Origin: a virus
Strand: one strand, 5' to 3'
Virus record (IMG/VR): IMGVR_UViG_3300047319_001671
Span: 1 to 20,503 of that record
Length of the DNA: 20,503 bases
The translations under genes and the position numbers were made by a program. The notes below the pieces were generated by a model. The model did not search any database and was not told where the DNA came from. It worked only from the letters and a program-made list of their open reading frames with translations. This document shows, piece by piece, positions 308 to 15,222 of the stretch (the stretch's first letter is position 1; each line of letters starts with the position of its first letter).

Positions 308-1752
308 GGCCCTTCACCCTGCCCCACTTTCGGGCCTGGGCGGCCGATCTGGTCCTCGACACCGAGGAAGCGTGGCATCCGGAGGACTTCCAGGAGGCAT
401 TCGCCGAGGATCTGTTCGCCGGCGTGCCCGAATGCTGGCTTCTCGTGCCCGAGGGCAATGGCAAGACCACCCTGATCGCCGGTCTGGCCCTCTATCACAT
501 CGAGCACAAGCCGTTTGCCGCCGTTCCGGTCGCCGCGAGCTCGCGGGAGCAGGCCGAGAACGTCTACCGACAGGCCGAAGGCTTCGTCCTCCGGTCGGAG
601 CGGCTCTACCAGCCGGTCCACAGCGCCATCGCGGCGGCCAAGGGCAAGCGCAAGACGGACGTCCCGCGCTTTCTGTGCCTCGAGGGCTACCGGCGGATCA
701 ACCACCACGCCGGCGGGCGCATCCAGATCTTCGCGGCAGATGATCGACACGGCGACGGGGTCATCCCGACGCTCGCGATCATCGACGAGATGCATCGCCA
801 CCAGGACCTTCGCCTCTATCGGACATGGTCGGGCAAGCTCGCCAAGCGTGGCGGCCAGCTCGCGGGCATCTCGACGGCCGGCGAGCCCGGCTCCGACTTC
901 GAGCTGACCAGGGCGAAGATCCTCGAGTCGGCGACCACGAGCCGGCTCGGCTCCTATGTCCATGCGCGGACTCCCCGCGTCGTTCTCCACGAATGGGCTC
1001 TCGCACCCGGCGCCGAGCCCGACGACATGGTCGCAGTCAAGGCTGCCAACCCGTTCTCGGGCATCACCCTCGAGATGCTGGCCGAGAAGTTCGAGAGCCC
1101 GACCATGACGCTCTCGCGCTGGTCGCGGTTCGTCTGCAACCGACCGACGCGCGAGATCGAGTCCTGGCTCGGCTCGGACGGTGACAGCCTGTGGACCGAT
1201 CTCGCGGAACCGTACGAGTTCGACGATGGCCCGGTCTACCTCGGGGTGGACGTCGGACTGAAGCGTGACTCGACGGCCGTGGTCGCGGTCCAGTACGACG
1301 CCGACCAGGTCCTCCACGCGGTCGCCCGCTTCTGGATCCCGACCGATCAGCAGTCGGTCGACGTGACCGACGTCATGCAGCACATCCGGACGCTGGCCGC
1401 GGAGCACGACGTCCAGGCGGTCAGCTATGACCCGCGGTTCTTCGACGTCCCGGCCAAGATGCTCCTCGACGAGGGGATCCCAATGAACGACATCCCCCAG
1501 TCGGTCGAGCGGATGACCACGATCTGCGGCGACCTCCTCGCCCTGATCCGGACCGGCAGCCTCCGGCATGACGGCAACGAGGTCCTCACCAATCACGTCC
1601 TCAATGCCGTGCCGCGCTTCAACGAGCACGGCTTCACCCTCCAGAAGTCGAAGTCCCACGGCCGCATCGACGGCTGCATCGCCCTCGCCCTGGCCGCTGA
1701 CAGGGCGGTTCGGCAGGAGACGGTCGCGGAGACGCACTTCGCATGGGCGTGA
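304..1752 (+). CDS. terL: Terminase large subunit (ATPase-nuclease packaging motor)
   Basis: This is the motor that pumps DNA into the prohead and cuts it. Numbered from CTG at 304 it is 482 residues. The N-terminal ATPase has a Walker A-like loop VPEGNGKTT (K54) and a Walker B strand LAIIDEMH (D161, E162). The C-terminal RNase H-like nuclease shows acidic residues in YLGVDVGLKRDS (D316, D322), SYDPRFF and GRIDGC (D456). The start is a problem. The first ATG, GTG or TTG in frame is GTG 424, only 13 codons before the catalytic lysine. Yet the frame is open and terminase-like upstream (FTLPHFRAWAADLVLD, then HPEDFQEAFAEDLFAGVPE). CTG 304 overlaps the previous stop as CTGA, matching the ATGA/GTGA couplings elsewhere in this window. 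A -1 slip on the A-run at 295-299 is an alternative. The 3' end overlaps the portal gene by 10 bases. Function is sure; the start is not. Confidence 0.9.
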   Translation: MRPFTLPHFRAWAADLVLDTEEAWHPEDFQEAFAEDLFAGVPECWLLVPEGNGKTTLIAGLALYHIEHKPFAAVPVAASSREQAENVYRQAEGFVLRSERLYQPVHSAIAAAKGKRKTDVPRFLCLEGYRRINHHAGGRIQIFAADDRHGDGVIPTLAIIDEMHRHQDLRLYRTWSGKLAKRGGQLAGISTAGEPGSDFELTRAKILESATTSRLGSYVHARTPRVVLHEWALAPGAEPDDMVAVKAANPFSGITLEMLAEKFESPTMTLSRWSRFVCNRPTREIESWLGSDGDSLWTDLAEPYEFDDGPVYLGVDVGLKRDSTAVVAVQYDADQVLHAVARFWIPTDQQSVDVTDVMQHIRTLAAEHDVQAVSYDPRFFDVPAKMLLDEGIPMNDIPQSVERMTTICGDLLALIRTGSLRHDGNEVLTNHVLNAVPRFNEHGFTLQKSKSHGRIDGCIALALAADRAVRQETVAETHFAWA

Positions 1753-3215
1753 TCGACCGCCTCAGGGACACGTTCGACCCGCTCCGCTACGCCGCGATCC
1801 CGCCGGCGCTGCCGTACATCGACAACTTCTGGCCGTACATCAACTCCAACGGCAACACCTACCCGATGGGGCTGACGACCAGCATCAAGGGCGAGAAGCA
1901 AGAGGAGCCCGACCCGTCCTTCGAGGGCTACACCAAGGTCGGCGGCGCCAACGGCATCATCTTCGCCTGCATGGCGGCGCACCTCCGGCTCTTCAGCCAG
2001 GCCCGCTTCCAGTGGCAGCGGATGAGCGGTGGGCGACCGGGCGACCTGTTCGGCACCGCCGAGCTCGGCATCCTCGAGAAGCCGTGGCCGGGCGGCGTCA
2101 CCGCCGACCTGCTCGGCCGGGCCAGCCAGCACGCCGACTACGCGGGCAACTTCTTCGCCACCCGGCGCAAGAACCGGATTGTCTGGATGCGCCCGACGTG
2201 GGTCGACATCGTCCTCGGCTCCAACAGCGACCCCGACGTCACCTCGGTCGACCTCGATGCCGAGATCCTCGGCTACATCTACTACCCCGGTGGCAAGCTC
2301 AGCCGGAACACGCCCGTCGCGCTCCTCGCCTCCGAGGTCGCGCACTACGCGCCGATCCCTGACCCGCTCGCGAGCTACCGCGGGATGTCCTGGCTGACGC
2401 CGGTCATCCGCGAGACGATGGGCGACAACGCGGCGACCGCCCACAAGCTCGCCTTCTTCGAGAACGGCGCGACGGCAAACCTCGTCCTGAAGCGGAATGA
2501 CCCCCTGACCCAGGTCGCCTTCGACGAGTGGGTCGACAAGGTGAACTCAGGTCACCGGGGCGTGGCCAACGCCTACAAGACCTTCTTCCTCGACAACGGG
2601 GCGGACGCGACGGTCGTCGGCGCGAACATGCAGCAGATGGAGTTCGCCGTCACCCAGTCGGCCGGCGAGGTCCGGATCGCGGTCGCGGCGGGCATCCCCG
2701 CCCCGGTCCTCGGCATCCTCGAGGGCCTCCAGGGCAGCGCCCTCAACGCGGGCAACTTCTCGGCCGCCCGCCGCCTCTACGCCGACATGTGGGCGCGCCC
2801 GTCGTGGGGCAACTTCGCCGCCTCGATGGAGGTCCTCGTCCCGGCCCCGTCGAACGCCCGCCTCTGGTACGACGCGAGGGACATCCCGTTCCTCGCCGAG
2901 GACGAGAAGGACGCGGCCGACATCCAGCAGGTCAAGGCCCAGACCGTCCGCTCGTTCATCGACGGCGGGTTCAAGGCCGACGACGCCATCAAGGCAGTCG
3001 AGGCCGGCGACATCGGCCTCCTGATCGGCAAGCACACGGGCCTCTTCAGCGTCCAGCTCCAGGCCCCCGGCTCGACCAAGATGCCCGCCGGCGAGGTCCC
3101 CGGCGAGACGCCGGTCGGCGCCGGCGCCAAGCCCGAGACCATCCCGGCCGGGGACACCAGCACGAAGCCACTCGCCGTCGGCTCCAGCAAGCCGACCAAC
3201 GGGAGCAAGCCATGA
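1743..3215 (+). CDS. Portal protein (HK97-like)
   Basis: The portal is the dodecameric ring at one capsid vertex through which DNA enters and leaves and to which terminase and the neck attach. The 490-residue length is typical of the HK97/SPP1-like portal family. Internal features fit: an early helical stretch (ANGIIFACMAAHLRLFSQARF), the mid-region YAGNFFATRRKNRIVWMRP with a VASEV-like turn, and the segment GVANAYKTFFLDNGADATVVGANMQ, matching the family pattern in which a strand follows a KxxxLxxG element. The conserved-looking piece RIAVAAGIPAPVLGILEG is followed by SALNAGNFSAARRLYADMW, corresponding to the region just before the C-terminal clip/crown in this family. The last 45 residues are rich in Pro, Gly and Lys and probably disordered. 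Its ATG lies inside the terminase 3' end, and its stop overlaps the next start as ATGA at 3212, so translation is probably coupled on both sides. Confidence 0.92.
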   Translation: MGVIDRLRDTFDPLRYAAIPPALPYIDNFWPYINSNGNTYPMGLTTSIKGEKQEEPDPSFEGYTKVGGANGIIFACMAAHLRLFSQARFQWQRMSGGRPGDLFGTAELGILEKPWPGGVTADLLGRASQHADYAGNFFATRRKNRIVWMRPTWVDIVLGSNSDPDVTSVDLDAEILGYIYYPGGKLSRNTPVALLASEVAHYAPIPDPLASYRGMSWLTPVIRETMGDNAATAHKLAFFENGATANLVLKRNDPLTQVAFDEWVDKVNSGHRGVANAYKTFFLDNGADATVVGANMQQMEFAVTQSAGEVRIAVAAGIPAPVLGILEGLQGSALNAGNFSAARRLYADMWARPSWGNFAASMEVLVPAPSNARLWYDARDIPFLAEDEKDAADIQQVKAQTVRSFIDGGFKADDAIKAVEAGDIGLLIGKHTGLFSVQLQAPGSTKMPAGEVPGETPVGAGAKPETIPAGDTSTKPLAVGSSKPTNGSKP

Positions 3216-5413
3216 CCGACGAGATCCGCCACGGTCCGACCGAGAACCTCTATCGGGCGATGCCCGGCGGCGTCCTCTCCGACGATGGCAAGACCCTGAC
3301 CGTCAGGCTCGCCCCCCACGAGCAATGGGCCGAGATCAACTCGAAGTCCGAGGGGCGCTTCATGGAGCGGTTCACCCGGACCGCCTACAAGAAGTCGATG
3401 GCCGAGCACGCCCCGAAGATCCTGTTCCAGCACGGGCAGGACCCCGAGATCGGCGACAAGCCGATCGCCACGACCGACGAGGTCGGCAGCGACGCGACCA
3501 GCCCCTACGCCCGTGGCCGTCTTCTCGATGGCGTGCCCGAGCTCGTCATCGACGGCATCCGCAAGGGCGTCTACGGCGCCTCGCACCGCTTCAGCGTCGT
3601 CCGCGAGACGTGGGACGACCGCCCGGTCGGCGGCAACCACAACCCGGAGCGGCTGCCCGAGCGGACGATCGGCGAGGCCCAGCTGCTCGAGCTCGGCCCC
3701 GTGACGTGGCCCGCCTACGCGGGGGCTTCGACCGCCCTGCGCTCCCTCACCGACGAGTACACCCAATCCCCCGAGCCGGAAGCACCCTCCCTCGACGCCG
3801 CGGCTCTGCCGCACCTCGAGCCGGAGCGCCGCGATGAGCCGGACCCGCCGCCGCCGGTAGCGGCAGTCATCGCAGCGACGGACCCGCCGGAAGGCGGGTC
3901 TTCTGATTCAAGGAGCGAACCCGTGGCCGATATCAGCCAGTACCGCAACCTCGACGAGATGGGCGCCCGCGTCCGGGAGCTCGACGCCGAGATCAAGCGC
4001 AGCTCCGAGATCCCGGGCCTCCTGCCGGAGAAGGAGCAGGCCGAGTTCGACGAGAAGGTCGCCGAGCGGGCGCAGCTCGAGCACGCCATGACGTCATGGC
4101 GCAGCAGGCTCGCCCAGGTCCGCGCCGCTGCCGAGGACGACGAGAAGGTCGACCCCGTCACGCCGCGCGTCTACCCGACGCCGACGGTCATCCGCGACAC
4201 CGACATGTTCGACTTCGACGGCGTCGAGAAGCGCGGCAAGTCGCCCGAGCACCGCGCCCAGCTGTATCGCGACAACGCGATGCGGATCACCGAGCAGGCG
4301 ACCTTCCCGCACCCGGACACCGACACCCAGGCGACCCGCGACCGGATGGCGTGGCTGCTCGACAACCACGACACCGAGGACAAGCAGCTCGCCAAGCGGT
4401 TCATGGCGACCGGCAGCCCCCTCTACCGCCGGGCGTTCAAGAAGATGATCCTCGGCCAGACCCTCACCCCCGAGGAGCAGCGTGGTACCGCCCTCGCGGT
4501 CGGCGTGGACGGCACGGGTGGTTTCGCCATCCCGGTCATCTTCGACCTCAGCGTCATCGCGATCGGCGTCCACTCGGGCGCGGTCAACCCCTACCGGGCC
4601 GTCTGCCGCGTCGTGCCGATCGTCGGCACCGACACGTGGAACGCCCTGACGGCGACCGTGGTCACCGCGACCCGGACGACGGAAGCGGCCCCCGCCATCG
4701 AGCAGGGTCCGACCTTCGCCCAGCCCCAGTACATCGTGAAGCGCGTCCAGGCGCAGATCACCTACTCGATGGAAGTCGCGCAGGACCGGACGGACATCGA
4801 GTCCGCGATGGCCACGCTCATCCAGGAAGCCAAGGACAACGAGGAAGAGACCTCGTGGGCGACCGGCGCCGGCGGCGGCTCGGCCTCGATCGGCGTCGGG
4901 CCGGTCAGCGGCACCTCGGGCGCGTACACGGCAGTTGCCGGTGCGGGCTCGGGCGTCATCGCCGAAGGCGACCTGACCGCGACGGAGGCGGCCCTCCCGG
5001 TCCGCCACCGCTTCGGGGCGCAATGGTTCTTCAACCGCACCAACATCCGGAAGATCCAGTCGCTCGAGACCACGGGCGGCAAGCTCTTCGGCGGAAGCAT
5101 CTACTTCCCGTCCGTCGGGCAGGTCGACCTCTCGGCGGTCGGCAACACCGGCCTCCGCCTCCTCGGCTACCCGGTCAACGAGTCGCCGTCGCTGCCCGTG
5201 GCAACGACCACGACCATCACGATCGGGACGCTGCTGAACCCCCAGCAGTACGTCATCGTCGACCGCATCGGGATGAGCCTCCAGATCATCCCGTTCGTCT
5301 TCGGCTCAGGCCAGGGCAACCTCGTCACCGGCCAGCAGGCGCTGTACGCCATGTGGCGGAACACCGCGGCTCCGCTGAACGTGGATGCCGGCCGGACCCT
5401 TCGCTTCCTGTAA
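3212..5413 (+). CDS. Prohead maturation protease fused in frame to major capsid protein
   Basis: A single 733-residue reading frame carries two proteins that are normally separate. Residues 1-180 are an HK97-type (peptidase U35/S78) prohead protease with likely catalytic H74 (LFQHGQD), S124 (YGASHRFS) and E155 (IGEAQL...VTWPAYA); the S-E spacing is close to that of HK97 gp4. Residues 185-237 are a proline-rich linker. From about residue 238 comes the capsid protein: a helical, coiled-coil delta/scaffold-like region (240-320), then the HK97-fold shell domain ending in a typical YVIVDRIGMSLQI segment. In many phages the protease removes the delta domain during maturation; cleavage here is inferred. 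An internal GTG at 3923 with AAGGAG before it probably makes most of the capsid protein separately. The start ATG 3212 overlaps the portal stop (ATGA). Longer in-frame starts upstream fall inside the portal gene and are rejected. Confidence 0.88.
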   Translation: MTDEIRHGPTENLYRAMPGGVLSDDGKTLTVRLAPHEQWAEINSKSEGRFMERFTRTAYKKSMAEHAPKILFQHGQDPEIGDKPIATTDEVGSDATSPYARGRLLDGVPELVIDGIRKGVYGASHRFSVVRETWDDRPVGGNHNPERLPERTIGEAQLLELGPVTWPAYAGASTALRSLTDEYTQSPEPEAPSLDAAALPHLEPERRDEPDPPPPVAAVIAATDPPEGGSSDSRSEPVADISQYRNLDEMGARVRELDAEIKRSSEIPGLLPEKEQAEFDEKVAERAQLEHAMTSWRSRLAQVRAAAEDDEKVDPVTPRVYPTPTVIRDTDMFDFDGVEKRGKSPEHRAQLYRDNAMRITEQATFPHPDTDTQATRDRMAWLLDNHDTEDKQLAKRFMATGSPLYRRAFKKMILGQTLTPEEQRGTALAVGVDGTGGFAIPVIFDLSVIAIGVHSGAVNPYRAVCRVVPIVGTDTWNALTATVVTATRTTEAAPAIEQGPTFAQPQYIVKRVQAQITYSMEVAQDRTDIESAMATLIQEAKDNEEETSWATGAGGGSASIGVGPVSGTSGAYTAVAGAGSGVIAEGDLTATEAALPVRHRFGAQWFFNRTNIRKIQSLETTGGKLFGGSIYFPSVGQVDLSAVGNTGLRLLGYPVNESPSLPVATTTTITIGTLLNPQQYVIVDRIGMSLQIIPFVFGSGQGNLVTGQQALYAMWRNTAAPLNVDAGRTLRFL
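3881..3900 (+). promoter_or_regulatory. GNRA-capped hairpin before the internal capsid start
   Basis: An 8-bp perfect stem (GACCCGCC at 3881-3888 pairs with GGCGGGTC at 3893-3900) is closed by the stable tetraloop GGAA. It lies in the protease-capsid linker, 9 bases before AAGGAG. It could slow ribosomes, mark an RNA processing end, or keep the capsid ribosome site open. It lacks a real U-run, so termination is unlikely. Confidence 0.5.
3923..5413 (+). CDS. Major capsid protein from internal start (HK97 fold)
   Basis: This is an internal initiation product of 496 residues in the same frame as the upstream protease. GTG 3923 is preceded by AAGGAG (3910-3915) with a 7-base spacer, the clearest Shine-Dalgarno sequence in the region. 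The product starts MADISQYRNLDEMGARVRE, a charged coiled-coil start usual for HK97-type capsid precursors. The shell domain has the expected features: an early GTALAVGVDGTGGFAIPVIF segment, QPQYIVKRVQAQITYSMEVAQD near the spine helix and strand, and a C-terminal segment from about the QQYVIVDRIGM motif. A capsid needs several hundred copies of this protein and far fewer of the protease. Independent initiation therefore solves a dosage problem that the fusion would create. Whether the fused form is also made and built into the head is unknown. Confidence 0.75.
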   Translation: MADISQYRNLDEMGARVRELDAEIKRSSEIPGLLPEKEQAEFDEKVAERAQLEHAMTSWRSRLAQVRAAAEDDEKVDPVTPRVYPTPTVIRDTDMFDFDGVEKRGKSPEHRAQLYRDNAMRITEQATFPHPDTDTQATRDRMAWLLDNHDTEDKQLAKRFMATGSPLYRRAFKKMILGQTLTPEEQRGTALAVGVDGTGGFAIPVIFDLSVIAIGVHSGAVNPYRAVCRVVPIVGTDTWNALTATVVTATRTTEAAPAIEQGPTFAQPQYIVKRVQAQITYSMEVAQDRTDIESAMATLIQEAKDNEEETSWATGAGGGSASIGVGPVSGTSGAYTAVAGAGSGVIAEGDLTATEAALPVRHRFGAQWFFNRTNIRKIQSLETTGGKLFGGSIYFPSVGQVDLSAVGNTGLRLLGYPVNESPSLPVATTTTITIGTLLNPQQYVIVDRIGMSLQIIPFVFGSGQGNLVTGQQALYAMWRNTAAPLNVDAGRTLRFL

Positions 5414-5421
5414 GTCACCAG

Positions 5422-5450
5422 AGGGGCGGCGAACCCATCCCGCCGCCCCT
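5422..5450 (+). terminator. Hairpin after the capsid gene (attenuator or mRNA stabiliser)
   Basis: This is a perfect 10-bp GC-rich stem, AGGGGCGGCG (5422-5431) with CGCCGCCCCT (5441-5450), around a 9-base loop. It begins 9 bases after the capsid stop. No U-tract follows, so it is better read as a partial terminator or 3' end protector of the capsid mRNA than as a full stop signal. Confidence 0.5.
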
Positions 5451-5472
5451 CCAACCTCCTCGAGGAGACCTC

Positions 5473-5727
5473 ATGGCGAAGGACAGCATCTTCCAGGTCA
5501 CGACGGCGTTCGTCATCACGATCGACGGCCGCGACGTCGAGTACCACGCGGGCGAGATCGTCGATGCCGACGACCCCGCCTACAAGCGCGTGCCCGAGCA
5601 CTTCGGCCCGGTCGAGTTCAAGCACCGCGCCGCGAAGGCCGCGAAGCCGGTCGAGCAGGCCACCGCCGCTCCGGGCGAGCAGCGCGCCGGCCAAGCCGTA
5701 AGCCTCGCCTCCATGAGGGGGCAGTAG
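5473..5727 (+). CDS. Small protein after the major capsid gene, unknown function
   Basis: This 84-residue protein has the look of small proteins often coded just after phage capsid genes. The first 55 residues form a compact beta-rich part (FQVTTAFVITIDGRDVEYHAGEIVDADDPAYKR, then VPEHFGPVEF) with the pattern 'G-x-x-V-x-x-x-x-P-x-x-K-x-x-P-x-x-F'. The last 30 residues are Ala/Lys/Gln-rich and probably disordered. The ATG has GAGGAG (5462-5467) 5 bases upstream, and the gene follows the post-capsid hairpin. The stop TAG is directly followed by the next ATG. A head-completion or capsid-vertex role is plausible from position only. Confidence 0.7.
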   Translation: MAKDSIFQVTTAFVITIDGRDVEYHAGEIVDADDPAYKRVPEHFGPVEFKHRAAKAAKPVEQATAAPGEQRAGQAVSLASMRGQ

Positions 5728-6330
5728 ATGGGCCTGACCTTCACCAACACCGCCGTCTCCACGGCCGCGGTCACCAACCGCTTCGTCGTCTCGACCAACA
5801 TGAAGGTCGGGACCTACACGATCGCCAACGCCTCCCCGACATGGAGCGGCGGCTGCCTCGTGACCATCACCCACACGACCGTGACCGGCACCGACACGCT
5901 CGGCACCATCACGATCGCCGGGACGGGCGTCAACGGCCAGCCCCTCACCGAGATCATGACCCCGGTCGCGGACTCGACGGCGACCAGCGTCAACGCCTTC
6001 CGCACCGTCACCAGCGCGACGGGCGCGGGCTGGGTCATCAACACCGGCAACGACACGATCGTCATCGGCTGCGCCGCGGGCAATATCGCCTGTGGCTCGC
6101 AGGGCACGCTCGGCGGCGTCCTCGTCAACAACCTCGTGGCGGCTGCCGTGACGATCAGCGACGCGAGCCGGACGATCATCACGATCCCCGCCTCGCAGGC
6201 CGCGGGCACCCTCTACTCGTTCGGCCAGCTCGGCGTGGACTTCGGCGGGCGCCTCGTGGTCAGCACGACCTCGACCAACGACATCACCGTCTTCCACACG
6301 AGCACCAGCCCGGCGAGCTACTCGCTGTGA
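5728..6330 (+). CDS. Beta-rich protein, candidate capsid decoration protein
   Basis: This 200-residue protein is almost entirely Thr/Ser/Val/Ile/Gly-rich and without charged helices, so it should be beta-sandwich or beta-helix-like. Strand-like repeats such as TNRFVVSTNM, YTIANASPTW, CLVTITHTTVTGTDTLGTITIAGTG and AAAVTISDASRTIITIPAS run throughout. No signal peptide or membrane helix is seen. The end HTSTSPASYSL looks like a final strand. It sits two genes after the capsid gene with GAGGGGGC just before the ATG, which favours a head-surface (decoration) role, but no specific family is recognised. A short fibre or appendage is the main alternative. Its TGA overlaps the next GTG (GTGA at 6327). 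Confidence 0.7.
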   Translation: MGLTFTNTAVSTAAVTNRFVVSTNMKVGTYTIANASPTWSGGCLVTITHTTVTGTDTLGTITIAGTGVNGQPLTEIMTPVADSTATSVNAFRTVTSATGAGWVINTGNDTIVIGCAAGNIACGSQGTLGGVLVNNLVAAAVTISDASRTIITIPASQAAGTLYSFGQLGVDFGGRLVVSTTSTNDITVFHTSTSPASYSL

Positions 6331-6467
6331 ACGCCACCGTCGAGCTGGCCCTCGCCATCGTGGCCCTGATCCTCGCGGCGATCGAGGAGTTCCGGGCGCA
6401 GGGCCAGTCGCTCCTCGCGTGGGCGGTCATCGCCCTCGCGGTCATCGTCGTCCTGACCCACCTATGA
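6327..6467 (+). CDS. 46-residue membrane peptide
   Basis: This very short gene uses a GTG that overlaps the previous stop (GTGA) and ends in an ATGA overlap with the next gene. The tight coupling on both sides argues that it is real. The product has two hydrophobic segments (about residues 4-20 and 28-45) separated by the charged link EEFRAQGQ. It should form a small two-pass hairpin in the cytoplasmic membrane. A membrane peptide inside a head gene cluster is odd. Holins are often of this shape but are usually longer and lie next to an endolysin, and none is seen here. Function unknown. Confidence 0.6.
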   Translation: MNATVELALAIVALILAAIEEFRAQGQSLLAWAVIALAVIVVLTHL

Positions 6468-6721
6468 AGCAGATCCCGTACGTCGAGACGGTCGAGGACT
6501 CCCGCGTCCGGGGTCTTCATCCCGCCACCGGCAAGCGGGCCATCGTCCAGCGCCTCGGCACGGGCGAGGTCCGCCTCTACTGCATCTCGTGCCATCACCC
6601 GGGCGCCTATGTCTCGGAGGAGATGCCGGGAGTCCTCTGGCTCTGCGACCAGTTCAGCGCCTGTGGCTGCAACTGCCTCGAAACGAAGGGCGAGCTTCCG
6701 CTCCCCCGCCTAGCACTCTAG
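6464..6721 (+). CDS. Cys-rich mini-protein, possible zinc-binding
   Basis: This 85-residue protein has a cluster of possible metal ligands: CISCHH near residues 44-49, then WLCDQFSACGCNC near 63-75. Two CxxC/CxC-like knuckles with a His pair suggest a zinc ribbon or similar fold. The N-terminal half (VEDSRVRGLHPATGKRAIVQRLGTGEVRLY) is a short beta-rich part. The start ATG 6464 overlaps the upstream stop (ATGA). The stop meets the stop of the opposite-strand HNH gene in a 4-base CTAG overlap. No family is recognised. It may be a small regulatory or nucleic-acid-binding protein carried with the adjacent membrane peptide. Confidence 0.6.
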   Translation: MKQIPYVETVEDSRVRGLHPATGKRAIVQRLGTGEVRLYCISCHHPGAYVSEEMPGVLWLCDQFSACGCNCLETKGELPLPRLAL

Positions 6722-7116
6722 AGACGCGGGCGACCGGTCCGATTGCACAGCGGGTGCACGGGTCGAACGTTCGCATAGACGTGTTGACCACCGGCCGAGA
6801 GCGGCACGGTGTGGTCGACCTCGAAGGCCCCGGCATCCACCGGCCGGTGGCACATCCCGCAGATGCCGCCGTCGCGTTCGAAGACGAGCATCCGGTCAAT
6901 CTCCTCACCCTCACGAACGGCAGCGCGGCGCTTCGCCATCTGCCGTCGGGTCTGTTCTCGGGCTAGCTCCGGGTGGGCCGCCCGCCACTTCCGCGCTGCC
7001 TCGGCGTTGTAACCGGGGTGGGCCGCCCGCCATTTGGCATTCGCTTCCCGAGCCGCGGCTCGGACGCCGTCAGGGTCGCTCGCAAGGGCTGCCTGGTAGA
7101 GATTGCGTCTCGGCAT
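6718..7116 (-). CDS. HNH endonuclease, probable homing/selfish element
   Basis: This 132-residue protein has a complete HNH (beta-beta-alpha metal) nuclease core at its C-terminus: zinc pair C86/C89 (ICGMC), D101-H102 (EVDHTVPLS), N116, H121, and C124-N125 (HPLCN). The N-terminal 70 residues are basic helices with two copies of KWRAAHP (residues 28-34 and 43-49), usual for DNA-contacting parts of phage HNH proteins. It is the only minus-strand gene within the 77-19005 block. It ends tail-to-tail with the neighbour (CTAG) and has its own strong GGAGGAG site upstream. This suggests an inserted mobile endonuclease. A role in packaging-site cleavage, known for some phage HNH proteins next to terminase genes, is less likely at this distance from the terminase. 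Confidence 0.85.
   Translation of the reverse strand: MPRRNLYQAALASDPDGVRAAAREANAKWRAAHPGYNAEAARKWRAAHPELAREQTRRQMAKRRAAVREGEEIDRMLVFERDGGICGMCHRPVDAGAFEVDHTVPLSAGGQHVYANVRPVHPLCNRTGRPRL
6971..7032 (-). repeat. Two 17-bp direct repeats inside the HNH gene
   Basis: GGGTGGGCCGCCCGCCA occurs at 6971-6987 and 7016-7032, 45 bp apart start to start. The spacing equals 15 codons and encodes the duplicated KWRAAHP unit, a recent in-frame duplication in the DNA-binding part. Confidence 0.8.
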
Positions 7117-7174
7117 ATCGGCTCTCCTCCAAGGTCGTAGAACCCTAGGGTATCACAAATAGGAGCGCCGTTCT

Positions 7175-7642
7175 ATGCCATTCTACTACACGTCGGCCTG
7201 GTCCGTGTCGACCAACGCCACGCCCAACACCGAGACGGACAACTTCCGCTACCTGACCGTCTCGCCCCGGCCCTGCAACATCACCCGCATCTCGGTCGGT
7301 GCCTCGGGCGCCGCCGTGGACGCCCAGCTGTTCCTCGACATCCGGCGCATGTCCGTCGCCTCGACGACCGGCTCGGCGTTCGTCCCCGAGAAGCAGGACC
7401 CGGGCCTCCAGGCCGCCGTCACCACGCCGTTCACCGCCGCGATCACCAAGGGCACCCCGAACACCAACCCGGCCCTCTACCTCGCCCTCAACTCGCGCGG
7501 GACGTGGCAGTGGGTGGCCACCAACCCGGACGAGGCGATCGCCCTCATCACGGCCGGCGGCGCGAACGGGAACATCGACGTCCTCTCCAACGCCTCGACG
7601 GCCTCGGTCCCGATGCGCGTCACCCAGGTCCACTGGGAATAA
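7175..7642 (+). CDS. Beta-rich phage structural protein (155 residues)
   Basis: The product is rich in Thr, Ser, Ala and Val with alternating hydrophobic strands (CNITRISVGASGAAVDAQLF, then LDIRRMSVAST). A Trp-containing turn (GTWQWVATNPDEAIAL) and a final strand VPMRVTQVHWE follow. The order (strand pair, LxxRRxS, proline/glycine stretch, W turn, closing strand) is also seen in the protein at 18406-19005, so the two may share a fold. AGGAG (7161-7165) lies 9 bases before the ATG; this restarts the plus-strand series after the HNH insertion. The position in the accessory head block suggests a virion surface or decoration role. No named family is recognised. Confidence 0.7.
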   Translation: MPFYYTSAWSVSTNATPNTETDNFRYLTVSPRPCNITRISVGASGAAVDAQLFLDIRRMSVASTTGSAFVPEKQDPGLQAAVTTPFTAAITKGTPNTNPALYLALNSRGTWQWVATNPDEAIALITAGGANGNIDVLSNASTASVPMRVTQVHWE

Positions 7643-8245
7643 GTGGCAACGAGGTTCTACGTCCGGGACAACGCAGGGTCGTGGACCAACGCCCCGGCCC
7701 TGCTGACGCCCGGCGCGAGCCTCGTGGCGAGCGACAACACCGCCACCGTCGCAGGGCCGTCCGGCGGCCTGTCGATCCTCAAGGGTGGATCGGCTGCGAG
7801 CTGGATCACCAACCAGCTCAACGGCGTAGCGATCAGCGCGAACATGACCATGAACATCTGGGCGTCCGAGTCCAGCAACTCCGCCAACTGCCAGGCGAAG
7901 CTCACGGTCCAGCGGTGCGACCCGACGGGCGCCGCCATCAGCACGATCGCCTCGTTCGCCAAGGGGACCGAGCTGCCGCTGACGACGAGGGCGGCACAGA
8001 ACATCGCCGGGGCCATCACCGGGGCGACGCTCGTGGATGGCGACCGGATCAAGTTCACGTTCTTCGTGGACGACTTCGGGACGATGAACTCCGGCTTCAC
8101 CTTCAACGCCGGCATCAACGGACCGACCGGAGCCGCCGACGGGGACTCGTGGGTCGAGTTCACCGAGACGATCACCGAGTTCGTCCTGCCTCGGTCTCGT
8201 CAGTCTCGTCAGTCTCGTCAGGCCGTCAACCGATCCACTCTCTAG
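7643..8245 (+). CDS. Beta-rich phage structural protein (200 residues)
   Basis: GTG 7643 directly follows the previous TAA. The product begins MATRFYVRDNAGSW and continues as alternating strands (LSILKGGSAASWITNQL, MTMNIWASES, QAKLTVQRCD). Charged/hydrophobic alternation near DRIKFTFFVDDFGTM and WVEFTETITEFVL suggests a jelly-roll or carbohydrate-binding-like sandwich. Proteins of this look occur among phage virion surface proteins, but no definite family is recognised. The C-terminus ends in SRQSRQSRQ coded by a perfect triple 9-bp repeat, a likely variable-length basic tail. It is grouped with the genes on each side, presumably for the same surface structure. Confidence 0.68.
   Translation: MATRFYVRDNAGSWTNAPALLTPGASLVASDNTATVAGPSGGLSILKGGSAASWITNQLNGVAISANMTMNIWASESSNSANCQAKLTVQRCDPTGAAISTIASFAKGTELPLTTRAAQNIAGAITGATLVDGDRIKFTFFVDDFGTMNSGFTFNAGINGPTGAADGDSWVEFTETITEFVLPRSRQSRQSRQAVNRSTL
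8195..8221 (+). repeat. Triple 9-bp tandem repeat (SRQ)3
   Basis: TCTCGTCAG is repeated three times without change at 8195-8203, 8204-8212 and 8213-8221, coding Ser-Arg-Gln three times near the C-terminus of the upstream structural protein. Copy number could change by slippage without breaking the frame. Confidence 0.9.
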
Positions 8246-8254
8246 GAGAGCCTC

Positions 8255-8917
8255 GTGGCCGAAGTCATGGGATCAGCAGACTTCCTCGCCGACGCCCTCG
8301 AGCGGGCGCAGCATCGCCGCTGGCGCGAGATGGGCTGCGGCCACATCGTCGGCTACGACCGCAAGGGTCGGCCGATCCGAAGCATCCTCGGCGCGGCTGA
8401 GCACCTCTACGCCATCCAGAACTCGACCGTCGCCACGACGGCGGCCCCGGTCAAGCAGCCGACCGGCGCAGCGATCCGGACGATGCTCCAGATCGAGGCA
8501 CCCGCCACCGACGCCATGAACTACGTCGAGTGGGGCATCAGCTTCGACGGCACCTCGGCGACGGCGGTTCCTGGCGAGGTCGAGTTCTTCGGCTGCACCG
8601 GCGCCGCGACGATGAGCACCGCCTCGACCTCGGCGGACGTGACGCTCTGGAGCGTGCCGCTCGACACGACCTCGGTGTCGGCCATCGTCTATGGCGGCAC
8701 GACGCACACCGCCTTCGCCACGGCGGCGGTCACCGAGGGGACGGTCGCCAACTACCGCCTCGGCGACCTCCAGCAGATCAGCCCGACAACCGGCTACGTC
8801 AAGCAGTACCCGCTCGGCCGTGAGTTCGTCGTCCCGCCGACGAAGCTCACCCGCGTCCGGGTGACGTTCGCCGCCACGGTCAACGCCTACATCTACTGCA
8901 TCTGGTCCGAGGGCTAG
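8255..8917 (+). CDS. Phage structural protein with helical head and beta body
   Basis: This is a 220-residue protein. The first 45 residues are charged and helical (ADFLADALERAQHRRWREMG, then CGHIVGYDRKGRPIRSIL). The rest is beta-rich: IRTMLQIEAPATDAMNYVEW, VEFFGCTGAATMSTASTSAD, YPLGREFVVPPTKLTRVRVT, and a final YIYCIWSEG strand. The helical part may anchor it to the capsid while the sandwich faces out; this is inference. GTG 8255 has TAGGAGAG upstream, and the 11-base CTAGGAGAGCC leader recurs before the next gene at 8934, so the two probably arose or spread with the same initiation cassette. No family is recognised. Confidence 0.68.
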   Translation: MAEVMGSADFLADALERAQHRRWREMGCGHIVGYDRKGRPIRSILGAAEHLYAIQNSTVATTAAPVKQPTGAAIRTMLQIEAPATDAMNYVEWGISFDGTSATAVPGEVEFFGCTGAATMSTASTSADVTLWSVPLDTTSVSAIVYGGTTHTAFATAAVTEGTVANYRLGDLQQISPTTGYVKQYPLGREFVVPPTKLTRVRVTFAATVNAYIYCIWSEG

Positions 8918-8933: not shown

Positions 8934-10097
8934 GTGGCGACCTTCTCCAGACGGCGGATCTTCGGCAGCGCCAATCGCCGGCCCATCCCGGTCGCCGCCG
9001 TCGCCGCGGCGTTCGACCCGTCCACGGGCTTCCCGTGGAACCAGGACGCCGGCGAGTCGTTCGTCCAGCTCCAGTTCTGGCAGGACGACACCCCCGCGTC
9101 CTTCGTCGGCGTGCCGCTCAACGCCATCCTGAAGACGGCGTGGTCGAACGACACCAACGAGGGGTTCGTCCTCGAGTCGTTCCGGGCCGATGACACCCCG
9201 GCCGCTCTCGGGACGCCGCCGTTCAACGTCAGCCAGAAGGCGGCATGGGACGGCGACTCCGAGGTCCCGCCATACGTCCCCGGGCAGGATGACACCCCGG
9301 CGCCGTTCGTCGGGGCCCCGCTCAACGTCACGCAGCTCACCGCGTGGGCCGTCGAGGGCGGCGAGGTCCAGCAGCAGCCGGGCGACGATCCCAGCGTCCA
9401 GTCGTGGGCGGTCGGCCCGCCGCTGAACGCGGTCGCGCTCAGCGCCTTCAACGGCGACAGCGACGTCCCGCCGAACGTCACGACCGAGGACCCGTCCGTC
9501 CAGTCGTGGGCAGTCCAGGTCGTCGGGGCGGCCCCGGTCTTCGACCCCTCGACGGGCTTCCCGTGGGCGCGCGAGGGTGGCGAGGTCGTCGCGACCCCGA
9601 CCGTCGACGACACGATCCCGCCCTTCGTCGGGGTGCCGCTCAACGCGACCAGCGCGCAGGCGTTCAACCAGCCGGACGAGGCGACGTTCGCTCCGGTCAC
9701 CGACGACACGGCGCAGCCCTATAGCATCCAGCCGGTCGCGGCAGCGGGCTTCGACCCGAGCACCGGGTTCCCATGGCCCAAGGGCGACGACATCGTCCAG
9801 CCGGTCTGGGCGATCACCGACGACACGGCTCAGGCGTGGACGCCGCAGCCGATCCCGTTCGTCGGCAACGTGCCGCAGGACGTGGCCCTCGAGCCGTGGA
9901 TGGTCCCGGATGACCTCGGCGCCTCATGGATCGCAGCGCAGGGTGGGGTCGTCGTCGTGACCGGCGGGCACGGTCCCGACAGCGGCAGCGCCTACAACCC
10001 GACCGCACCGGGCTACGCCCTGTCGCCCGTCCCGGGCGGATCGGCGACAGGCCCCACCCCGTCAGGCTCGGCCACCAGTCCACGACCGCAGAGGTAG
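8934..10097 (+). CDS. DD-repeat / FDPSTGFPW-repeat protein, unknown
   Basis: This 387-residue acidic protein is made almost entirely of repeats. FDPSTGFPW occurs three times (residues 27-35, 203-211, 273-281). A degenerate unit of roughly 30-40 residues begins with a (D/E)D pair and often continues D-T/P-x-x-x-F/W-V-G-x-P-L-N-x6-A-W/F. Copies begin near residues 50, 85, 118, 151, 185, 224, 256, 296 and 325. The unit is rich in Trp, Pro and Asp and poor in Lys. The last 35 residues are a Gly/Ser/Pro tail (YNPTAPGYALSPVPGGS). The start is a short basic segment (RRRIFGSANRR). There is no signal peptide or membrane helix. It could be a capsid-surface spike, a bundling or adhesive protein, or a spacer. 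No known repeat family is recognised. Confidence 0.72.
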   Translation: MATFSRRRIFGSANRRPIPVAAVAAAFDPSTGFPWNQDAGESFVQLQFWQDDTPASFVGVPLNAILKTAWSNDTNEGFVLESFRADDTPAALGTPPFNVSQKAAWDGDSEVPPYVPGQDDTPAPFVGAPLNVTQLTAWAVEGGEVQQQPGDDPSVQSWAVGPPLNAVALSAFNGDSDVPPNVTTEDPSVQSWAVQVVGAAPVFDPSTGFPWAREGGEVVATPTVDDTIPPFVGVPLNATSAQAFNQPDEATFAPVTDDTAQPYSIQPVAAAGFDPSTGFPWPKGDDIVQPVWAITDDTAQAWTPQPIPFVGNVPQDVALEPWMVPDDLGASWIAAQGGVVVVTGGHGPDSGSAYNPTAPGYALSPVPGGSATGPTPSGSATSPRPQR

Positions 10098-10100
10098 ACG

Positions 10101-11036
10101 ATGCCGAACCTCGGGAAGATCACGGTCGAGAACCCCGACGAGATCCGGAACGTCGGGGCCTATGACACGGGCGCCCTGATCCGCGTCCAGTGGGCCGCGA
10201 CTGCCACCGGGTCCTTCGCCGATGTCTCCGGGACCGGCTCGACGCCGACGATCCCGGTCGTCGCGGGGACGCGGTCCTATACCTTCTACGACCCCAACGG
10301 CATCGTCTCGACCTGGTACCAGACCCGCTACGAGAACGCCGGCGCGACCCGGCTCTCGGACTGGACGCCGGCGTTCCAGGTCGGCGACGAGACGGGCGGG
10401 CTGCTCTGCTCGCTGTACGACGTCCAGCAGGAGATCGGCGGGACGCAGAGCGCCAACGACAACGAGGTGATCCTCGAGAAGATCCGCCAGGTCAGCGCGC
10501 AGATCGAGCTCTTCGTCGGCCGCTGGCTCGCCCCTCGCCCGACGAACCCGGCGAGCGACATGACGCTGACGTGGGATGTCCCGTACGGTCGAGCGACCCG
10601 CTCGCTGCTCCTCGACCAGGGCAACCGCCTCGCGGGGATCCGCCGGCTCACCTCCATCGCACTCGCGACGGTCAGCCAGCCCGAGAGCGGTGGCAGCTAC
10701 ACCTCCGGCACCGTGGCCGACTTCCTCCTGCGGCCCAAGCCGAATGCCGACGGGCCGGCCCTGCGGCTCGAGGTCACGCCATATCCCACGGGGGGCGTGA
10801 CCTACTTCTACCCGGGCTACAACACCGTCCAGACGGTCGGCGGCTATGGACCGGCCAGCGTCTCGCCCGACATCCAGGGCATCGCTGTCCGGGCCGCGGC
10901 CCGGAGGTATCTCGGCAAGGGCAGCGGCGGTGCGCTGGTGACGATCGGCCCCAATGGCACGGAGATGCTCCTGCCTGACCTGTCGGGCGCGGACCGGACG
11001 ACGCTCCAGAGCTACGTCATCCCGAACGTGGCCTAG
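10101..11036 (+). CDS. Head-tail connector with extra N-terminal Ig-like domain
   Basis: This 311-residue protein is longer than usual head-tail adaptors (about 100-200 residues). The N-terminal 95 residues are beta-rich with an Ig/fibronectin-like pattern: ALIRVQWAATATGSFADVSG, TRSYTFYDPNG, WYQTRYENAG, LSDWTPAFQV. The rest, from LLCSLYDVQQEIGG, resembles HK97 gp6-like connectors: a four-helix start (EVILEKIRQVSAQIELFVGRWLAP), a beta domain (TRSLLLDQGNRL, IRRLTSIALATV), and a final helix (IQGIAVRAAARRYLGKGSG). Connectors form the ring beneath the portal. Its place at the border between head and tail blocks agrees. The Ig-like addition may decorate the neck. The connector call is moderate; the Ig call comes from pattern only. 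Confidence 0.72.
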   Translation: MPNLGKITVENPDEIRNVGAYDTGALIRVQWAATATGSFADVSGTGSTPTIPVVAGTRSYTFYDPNGIVSTWYQTRYENAGATRLSDWTPAFQVGDETGGLLCSLYDVQQEIGGTQSANDNEVILEKIRQVSAQIELFVGRWLAPRPTNPASDMTLTWDVPYGRATRSLLLDQGNRLAGIRRLTSIALATVSQPESGGSYTSGTVADFLLRPKPNADGPALRLEVTPYPTGGVTYFYPGYNTVQTVGGYGPASVSPDIQGIAVRAAARRYLGKGSGGALVTIGPNGTEMLLPDLSGADRTTLQSYVIPNVA

Positions 11037-13743: not shown

Positions 13744-15222
13744 ATGGCTGACACGACGATCAACTTCGTCGCCACGTTCAAGGCGGGCGCGGCCACGGCG
13801 GCGGTCAACTCGTTCAAGGGCGCGCTCCACGGGCTCCATGGTGCCGTTAGCAACGTCGCGGGCAAGCTCAAGGACCTCGGCGTCATGGTGGCGAAGCTGG
13901 CGGTCGGCGCGGGGGTCGCTCTCGTGGGGCTGCTCAGCCTGTCGGCGAAGAAGGCCGACGAGTACGGCATCACCGTCGCCCGGGTGGCGAAGATCACGGG
14001 CCTCGCGGTCGACCAGTCGTCGCGGCTGGTCGCGGTCTTCCAGCGGTACGGCGTCGAGGGTACGGACGCCATCCGCACCATCGGGATGCTCGAGAAGAAC
14101 GTCGGGAAGTACACCCTGACGACGAAGGCGTCGGCCAAGTTCGCCGAGCAGTGGGGCTTCTCGCTCCGCGACGCCAACGGCCACGTCAAGGACGCCAACG
14201 CCCTCATCAGCCAGGCGGCCGACTACTTCAACAACAAGAGCATCCCCGCATCGAAGAAGGCGGCTCTCGAGGCCAGCCTCTTCGGCCGGAACTGGCAGCA
14301 GATCGTTCCGATCCTCGCCCTCGGCAGCAAGGGCATCAAGGACGCCGGCGACGAGGCCGCGAAGCTCGGCCTGGTCCTCGACAAGAACAGTGCGGGCTCA
14401 CTGGCGAAGTTCCACCAGGCGGGCATCCAACTGGGCGAGGCGTGGGGCGGGTTCCAGCTCCAACTCGGCCTCTTCGTGATGCCGATCCTGACCAAGCTCT
14501 TCGGGATCATCACCGACAAGGTCATCCCCGCCGTCCGGGCGGGCGCCGCCGCGGTCGCGAAGTGGCTCAGCGACAACAAGCCGCTGATCGACCAGCTCAC
14601 CCACTTCGCCGGGACCGTCCTCGCCCACGTCATCACGGCGCTCCGCAACGTCATCGGCTGGATCCTGTCGGTGGTCAAGACGATCGCCGGCAACAAGGAC
14701 GCGATGAACGTCCTGACGACGATCGCCAAGGCCATCGGCACGGCCTTCACGGTCGCCTGGCAGGCCATCCAGACCATCATCGGCTGGATCGCGAAGTTCG
14801 TGGACAGCGTCGGCAAGAACAAGACCGCGATGACCGCCTTCCGCACCTTCTGGGACGGGGTCCTCTTCGTCCTCGGCAAGGTCGGCGACGCACTCCAGTT
14901 CATCATCGACCTCGCCGGGAAGGCGATCGACGCCCTGTCGAAGGTCAGCCTCTGGCAGTCCAAGACGCCGCAGCAGTCGCAGCAATACCACGCGCCGCAG
15001 CATGCCGCCGGCGGATGGGTCGGCCTCGCGGGTCCCGAACTCTCGTGGGTCGGCGAGAAGGGTCCCGAGTACATCATCCCGAACGACCAGCTCGGGAAGG
15101 GCGTCGGTACCGTCCATCACACGACGGTCGTCATGCTCGACAAGCGGGTCCTCGCCACCGCGGTCGACGAGTTCCTCGCGAGTAGCTTCGGGCGGGCGGC
15201 GCCGACCCTCGGCCGGACCTGA
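13744..15222 (+). CDS. Tape measure protein
   Basis: This 492-residue protein sets tail length and threads through the tube. The N-terminal region is helical and Ala-rich (VNSFKGALHGLHGAVSNVAG). A hydrophobic segment follows near residues 44-67 (KDLGVMVAKLAVGAGVALVG), and more occur near LFVMPILTKLFGIITDKVI, VIGWILSVVKTIAG and IIGWIAKFVD; these could enter the host membrane on infection. The C-terminus has the usual tape measure end: HAAGGWVGLAGPELSWVGEK then GPEYIIP. Repeated amphipathic helices with Trp-containing breaks fill the middle. At about 1.5 angstroms per residue the length predicts a short tail of roughly 70-75 nm. The ATG directly follows the chaperone TAG; the stop overlaps the next start (TGATG). 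Confidence 0.88.
   Translation: MADTTINFVATFKAGAATAAVNSFKGALHGLHGAVSNVAGKLKDLGVMVAKLAVGAGVALVGLLSLSAKKADEYGITVARVAKITGLAVDQSSRLVAVFQRYGVEGTDAIRTIGMLEKNVGKYTLTTKASAKFAEQWGFSLRDANGHVKDANALISQAADYFNNKSIPASKKAALEASLFGRNWQQIVPILALGSKGIKDAGDEAAKLGLVLDKNSAGSLAKFHQAGIQLGEAWGGFQLQLGLFVMPILTKLFGIITDKVIPAVRAGAAAVAKWLSDNKPLIDQLTHFAGTVLAHVITALRNVIGWILSVVKTIAGNKDAMNVLTTIAKAIGTAFTVAWQAIQTIIGWIAKFVDSVGKNKTAMTAFRTFWDGVLFVLGKVGDALQFIIDLAGKAIDALSKVSLWQSKTPQQSQQYHAPQHAAGGWVGLAGPELSWVGEKGPEYIIPNDQLGKGVGTVHHTTVVMLDKRVLATAVDEFLASSFGRAAPTLGRT

Follow-up and report, generated by a model that had tools for sequence, protein, structure and literature searches.

The repeat gene and its operon

The window, by which we mean the whole stretch of DNA analysed (20,503 bases, an entire IMG/VR virus record), carries the late operon of a tailed phage, and the record is probably a genome fragment. 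Its main landmarks are as follows.

424-1752, terminase
1743-3215, portal
ending at 5413, protease/capsid reading frame
6718-7116, minus strand, HNH endonuclease (PF01844, E 1e-9)
8255-8917, plus strand, upstream gene, 91% identical in the relative L036
8921-8936, plus strand, ribosome-binding region (RBS-like CTAGGAGAGCCCAGTG) and GTG start
8934-10097, plus strand, repeat protein gene, GTG at 8934 to TAG at 10097, 387 aa
10101-11036, plus strand, head-tail adaptor directly downstream, the synteny anchor (phrog_442, E 9.9e-6)
13744-15222, likely tape measure

Several small genes lie between the protease/capsid frame and the repeat gene, and the tail genes follow 3' of the adaptor. The repeat gene begins 16 bases after its upstream neighbour and ends 3 bases before the adaptor; a near-identical copy of its RBS-like sequence stands at 8242, ahead of the gene at 8255, and the GC content at its codon positions 1, 2 and 3 (0.68, 0.55 and 0.93) matches that of real genes in the window.

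The HNH endonuclease falls within 6322-8215, a stretch of the window without a DNA match in L036. Genes of this kind have been proposed to sit at exchange boundaries in phages (PMC10448857), and this one may mark such a boundary. Positions 6419-6721 encode a small Cys-rich protein (CISCHHPGAYVS...CDQFSACGCNC) with no Pfam match, and a comparable gene precedes the homologue of the window's gene 7175 in L020-L023. In the adaptor, about 100 residues (10101-10400) precede the region matched by phrog_442; they are conserved in L020 and L002 and look like an additional beta-rich domain.

A family of nine repeat units

The first-pass annotation had described about nine degenerate units of 30-40 residues, and our delimitation bears this out: nine units can be told apart, each 32-40 residues long and the last of them degenerate, with boundaries at residues 27, 61, 96, 129, 163, 203, 235, 273 and 313. 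Residues 1-26 and 341-387 lie outside the repeats.

8934-8999, plus strand, basic N-terminal piece MATFSRRRIFGSANRRPIPVAA, unchanged in L036 (22/22 aa), where the remainder of the protein differs
9012-9113, plus strand, unit 1, FDPSTGFPW head
9114-9218, plus strand, unit 2, PLNAILKTAW head
9219-9317, plus strand, unit 3, PFNVSQKAAW head
9318-9419, plus strand, unit 4, PLNVTQLTAW head
9420-9539, plus strand, unit 5, PLNAVALSAF head, best L020 partner unit 5
9540-9635, plus strand, unit 6, FDPSTGFPW head
9636-9749, plus strand, unit 7, PLNATSAQAF head, ..PDEA..
9750-9869, plus strand, unit 8, FDPSTGFPW head, ..DDIVQPVW.., best L020 partner unit 8
9870-9953, plus strand, unit 9, degenerate
9954-10094, plus strand, Gly/Ser/Pro C-terminal tail ending SATSPRPQR, with comparable tails in relatives that carry other bodies

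Each unit runs from its head through an acidic/Gly stretch to DDT or DDP and then to a short aromatic/hydrophobic and Pro segment. The heads are of two kinds, FDPSTGFPW or PLNA/V....A(W/F), occupying the same position in the unit. The first-pass annotation had counted three copies of FDPSTGFPW, and there are exactly three (at residues 27, 203 and 273). They are not a motif apart: they stand where PLNVTQLTAW stands elsewhere, so that all units belong to a single repeat family, in which the head takes either of two forms. Between any two of the three copies there are 2, 5 or 7 nucleotide differences, every one synonymous, and therefore the peptide itself has been kept.

The self-comparison proposed in the first-pass annotation finds repetition far above that of shuffles: without gaps, 233 off-diagonal 20-residue windows score at least 30, against 0-18 in 30 shuffles, and the best score is 75, against a shuffle maximum of 52. 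The Trp/Pro/Asp-rich and Lys-poor composition that it had noted holds as well (P 13.4%, D 8.0%, W 3.4%, Lys 3/387 or 0.8%), and Cys is absent. So does the unlikeness to recognised repeats: no match turned up in Pfam, the PDB, a set of 50,697 phage records or a set of 72,556 plasmids, and the best PHROG match is non-significant (E 0.15). The suggestion of calcium binding, on the other hand, found no support: no known calcium-binding family (RTX, dockerin, EF-hand) was matched, the Pfam scan of the protein being empty at E<=1. A profile of the unit had zero matches in 396 genomes from the phylum of Nocardia, in a search run without a positive control. The pattern FDPxTG(F/Y)PW was matched 12 times in the genome collection, in 0 of 12 cases in a protein carrying such repeats, and we found no mention of the FDPSTGFPW motif in the open-access literature.

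A homologue and the predicted conformation

The only clear homologue of the repeat body is a protein of 384 residues in L020 (9176-10330; IMG/VR 3300048080_000581), which was reached via the neighbouring gene 7175 and had been missed by a fixed-peptide, single-protein scan of viral contigs. It is 42% identical to the window protein over 337 columns (E 2e-41), consists of nine units of the same kind and lies directly upstream of the L020 adaptor. The two proteins are thus alike in repeat family, unit count and slot, but the N-terminal piece of the L020 protein is of the type found in L040, and its tail resembles the L040 tail. When units are compared across the two arrays, units 5 and 8 each pair best with the unit of the same number, and for unit 7 the scores with units 3 and 7 are about equal. 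Since units 5 and 8 keep their positional partners, the array is, at least in part, old and has not been recently reshuffled.

An extended filament had been suggested for the protein, and of this the extended part fares better than the ordered one. AlphaFold2 (AF2) gave a mean pLDDT of 29 for the whole 387 residues with one homologue (a two-row alignment) and, for a two-unit block aligned in register (seven rows), a pLDDT of 61 and a pTM of 0.13; with alignments this shallow, the low confidence may reflect scarce data and not disorder. Prediction of several units together, as had been proposed, was carried out on two-unit blocks, the three-unit internal alignment having lost register, and no helix or strand was seen. 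The charge-hydropathy test puts the window protein with folded proteins and the L020 body, by a small margin, with disordered ones. Judging from these models, the repeat protein is likely to be a disordered or extended chain; an ordered filament finds no counterpart in them, as no unit fold is predicted.

Exchange of repeat bodies between conserved ends

The main new result comes from the comparison with relatives, above all L036. The neighbours of the slot, as we call the position directly upstream of the adaptor, are 91% (upstream gene) and 74% (adaptor) identical between the two, and the slot proteins have identical first 22 residues (E 3e-11) and an alignable end (SPRPQR in the window, NPKPQR in L036), with no detectable similarity between. 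At the DNA level, blastn homology ends at 8998 and resumes at 10065. The L036 protein (4415-5995), an LSFVG-repeat protein, resembles that of the window in its slot, its first 22 residues and its last ones, but has a body of 18-residue repeats without detectable similarity to the window body. All seven nucleotide differences in codons 2-22 are synonymous; the very short C-terminal end common to both carries 2 synonymous and 4 nonsynonymous changes.

The same holds more widely. Between L020 and L040, identity is 52% for the upstream gene, 54% for the adaptor, 64% for the N-terminus of the slot protein and 56% for its C-tail (E 2.6e-5), and the bodies are unrelated. Tails are common to proteins with different repeat bodies in L036 and L002 (E 1e-9) and in L040 and L041 (E 1.6e-7), and, conversely, bodies are common to proteins with different N-termini in the window and L020 (E 2e-41) and in L002 and L040 (E 2e-76). 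Shared ends with other bodies, together with shared bodies with other N-termini, mean that bodies and termini reassort; in four pairs of relatives, one or both ends are kept and the whole repetitive middle is exchanged. The first-pass annotation was right that the repeats are real, but it overlooked that the body is one of several unrelated bodies between conserved end-pieces.

Using the adaptor as a lead to further relatives of the slot, we found a repeat protein directly upstream of it in the window, L020, L036, L002, L039, L040, L041 and L044. Apart from the kinds already described, the repeats are of 20 residues (LADS) in L002 and L040, of 24 residues in L039 and Ala/Gly/Thr-rich in L041. 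L044 is an actinobacterial genome contig (the phylum of Nocardia), and the downstream neighbour of its slot gene is again a phrog_442 adaptor (E 1.3e-11). Its slot protein (5470-7182, 570 residues) matches phrog_10356, a virion structural protein of the head and packaging class (E 3.5e-23), over the first half; behind this half come repeats peculiar to the protein, with a weak period of 20 residues. The resemblance to the window lies in the position and in the presence of repeats: the PHROG match covers a non-repeat domain that the window protein does not have, and no shared sequence is detectable between the two proteins.

A neighbouring gene (7643-8245 in the window, 2598-3737 in L036, 3470-4081 in L040 and 7976-8665 in L020) likewise reassorts bodies and C-tails. 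The C-tail RQAVNRSTL of the window copy is common to the L036 protein, whose body is unrelated; the window body is common to L040, and the L040 tail PRSTPYPQLLAH recurs on an unrelated body in L020. Differences within the two tails are all synonymous (4 and 6), an excess that is inflated by the choice of these stretches for peptide identity.

Exchange of whole genes and of fibre tips is familiar in phages. Here it is the complete repetitive middle of a protein that gives way to an unrelated repeat, with one end or both staying in place, a pattern of which we found no description in the open-access literature.

Possible functions of the slot protein

The reading that we favour, giving it an even chance, is that of a late-expressed accessory protein of the virion, with conserved end-pieces and an exchangeable repeat body, forming an extended chain for spacing or weak multivalent contacts. 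The protein is built of a replaceable repeat body between two short ends, a basic piece at the N-terminus and a tail at the C-terminus. The end-pieces would dock the protein on the particle, at the capsid surface or the neck, and the body would extend outside it as a largely disordered chain, whose repeated W/F-P-D motifs could touch the host surface or the environment weakly at many points; alternatively, the body may be a mere spacer.

A helping role in adhesion is attributed to head fibres and decoration proteins, among them SPP1 gp12, phi29 gp8.5, T4 Hoc and T5 pb10 (PMC7602432), and genes inserted between the capsid and connector genes have been described in Microbacterium cluster ED phages (PMC7302621). 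Like the genes of those four proteins, the repeat gene is an accessory one that belongs to the capsid region of a late operon and is replaced between relatives. In the window, L020 and L036 its place in the late structural operon is close to the major capsid gene, with capsid-region genes on one side and the adaptor on the other, and L036 has another body in its stead. The likeness could extend to a small anchor with a displayed extended part. It differs from the head fibres in having both ends kept and the middle replaced, and no sequence, coiled-coil or Ig-like match links it to them. As Pfam, PHROG and PDB searches linked it to no decoration protein or fibre already described, and no fold was predicted, we do not claim membership in any known decoration family. 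A collagen-like phage protein was rejected, there being no Gly-X-Y, a period of about 34 and only 9% Gly, as was a tail fibre or receptor-binding protein, the repeat gene preceding the likely tape measure and not lying among the tail-tip genes after it.

Going further, and only tentatively, the end peptides could be docking tags, used both at the slot and at the neighbouring gene, with unrelated bodies swapped whole as surface cassettes by which phages re-equip the particle; at 7643-8245, body and C-tail are reassorted in the same way. Should the end-pieces indeed serve as docking tags, they would lend themselves to the display of chains on phage particles and would supply a simple rule by which surface accessory genes with an orphan-like look can be recognised.

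The virion accessory protein need not sit on the capsid, however. We consider it unlikely, but conceivable, that it is a whisker- or collar-like fibre of the neck or tail shaft whose end-pieces dock on the adaptor or neck and not on the capsid surface. The repeat gene always adjoins the adaptor gene, and the nearby L020 gene at 7976-8665 matches minor-tail PHROGs (phrog_2106, E 3e-7); however, the slot also lies within a run of capsid-region genes, and the sole slot protein with a strong PHROG match, that of L044, belongs to head and packaging. Somewhat less probable still is a protein that serves in assembly or as an internal chain (scaffold-like, packaged or a chaperone), absent from the finished surface, with repeats that bind capsid or tail subunits during assembly. 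Disordered chains can serve as scaffolds, and both the late structural operon and the conserved basic N-terminal piece would suit such a role, but whole-body replacement between close relatives is unlike a factor that has to fit conserved capsid or adaptor partners. Most doubtful is selfish or neutral cargo at a recombination hot spot, where repeats accumulate without selected function: the completely different bodies of close relatives and the nearby HNH endonuclease are in its favour, but the purely synonymous differences among the FDPSTGFPW copies, the same-position best partners of units 5 and 8 at 42% overall identity, and the retained frame, start and RBS all speak against it.

Resemblances outside the family

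FDPxTGFPW also occurs within W/P/D-rich proteins of L004, L006 and L007, with repeats of about 33 residues in L006 and about 41 in L004, the latter also carrying a 50%-identical copy of the window's gene 7175. We rejected these as members of the repeat family, as their first profile score was carried by the search motif and vanished on masking; with the motif masked, the unit profile scores no higher on them than on shuffles, and common descent is therefore not demonstrated. By eye, L006 and L044 had looked lectin-like (LamG), but Pfam and the PDB gave no support, and this reading was likewise dropped. FDPGxGFPW appears near the end of amidase-like phage proteins in L005, L027, L031 and L032, a resemblance that we judged probably convergent. 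Finally, positions 58105-58281 of Pseudanabaena phage Pam2 (ON014754.1) match the L044 slot protein over 58 residues only; the annotation there, 'botulinum neurotoxin type A', is probably a misannotation.
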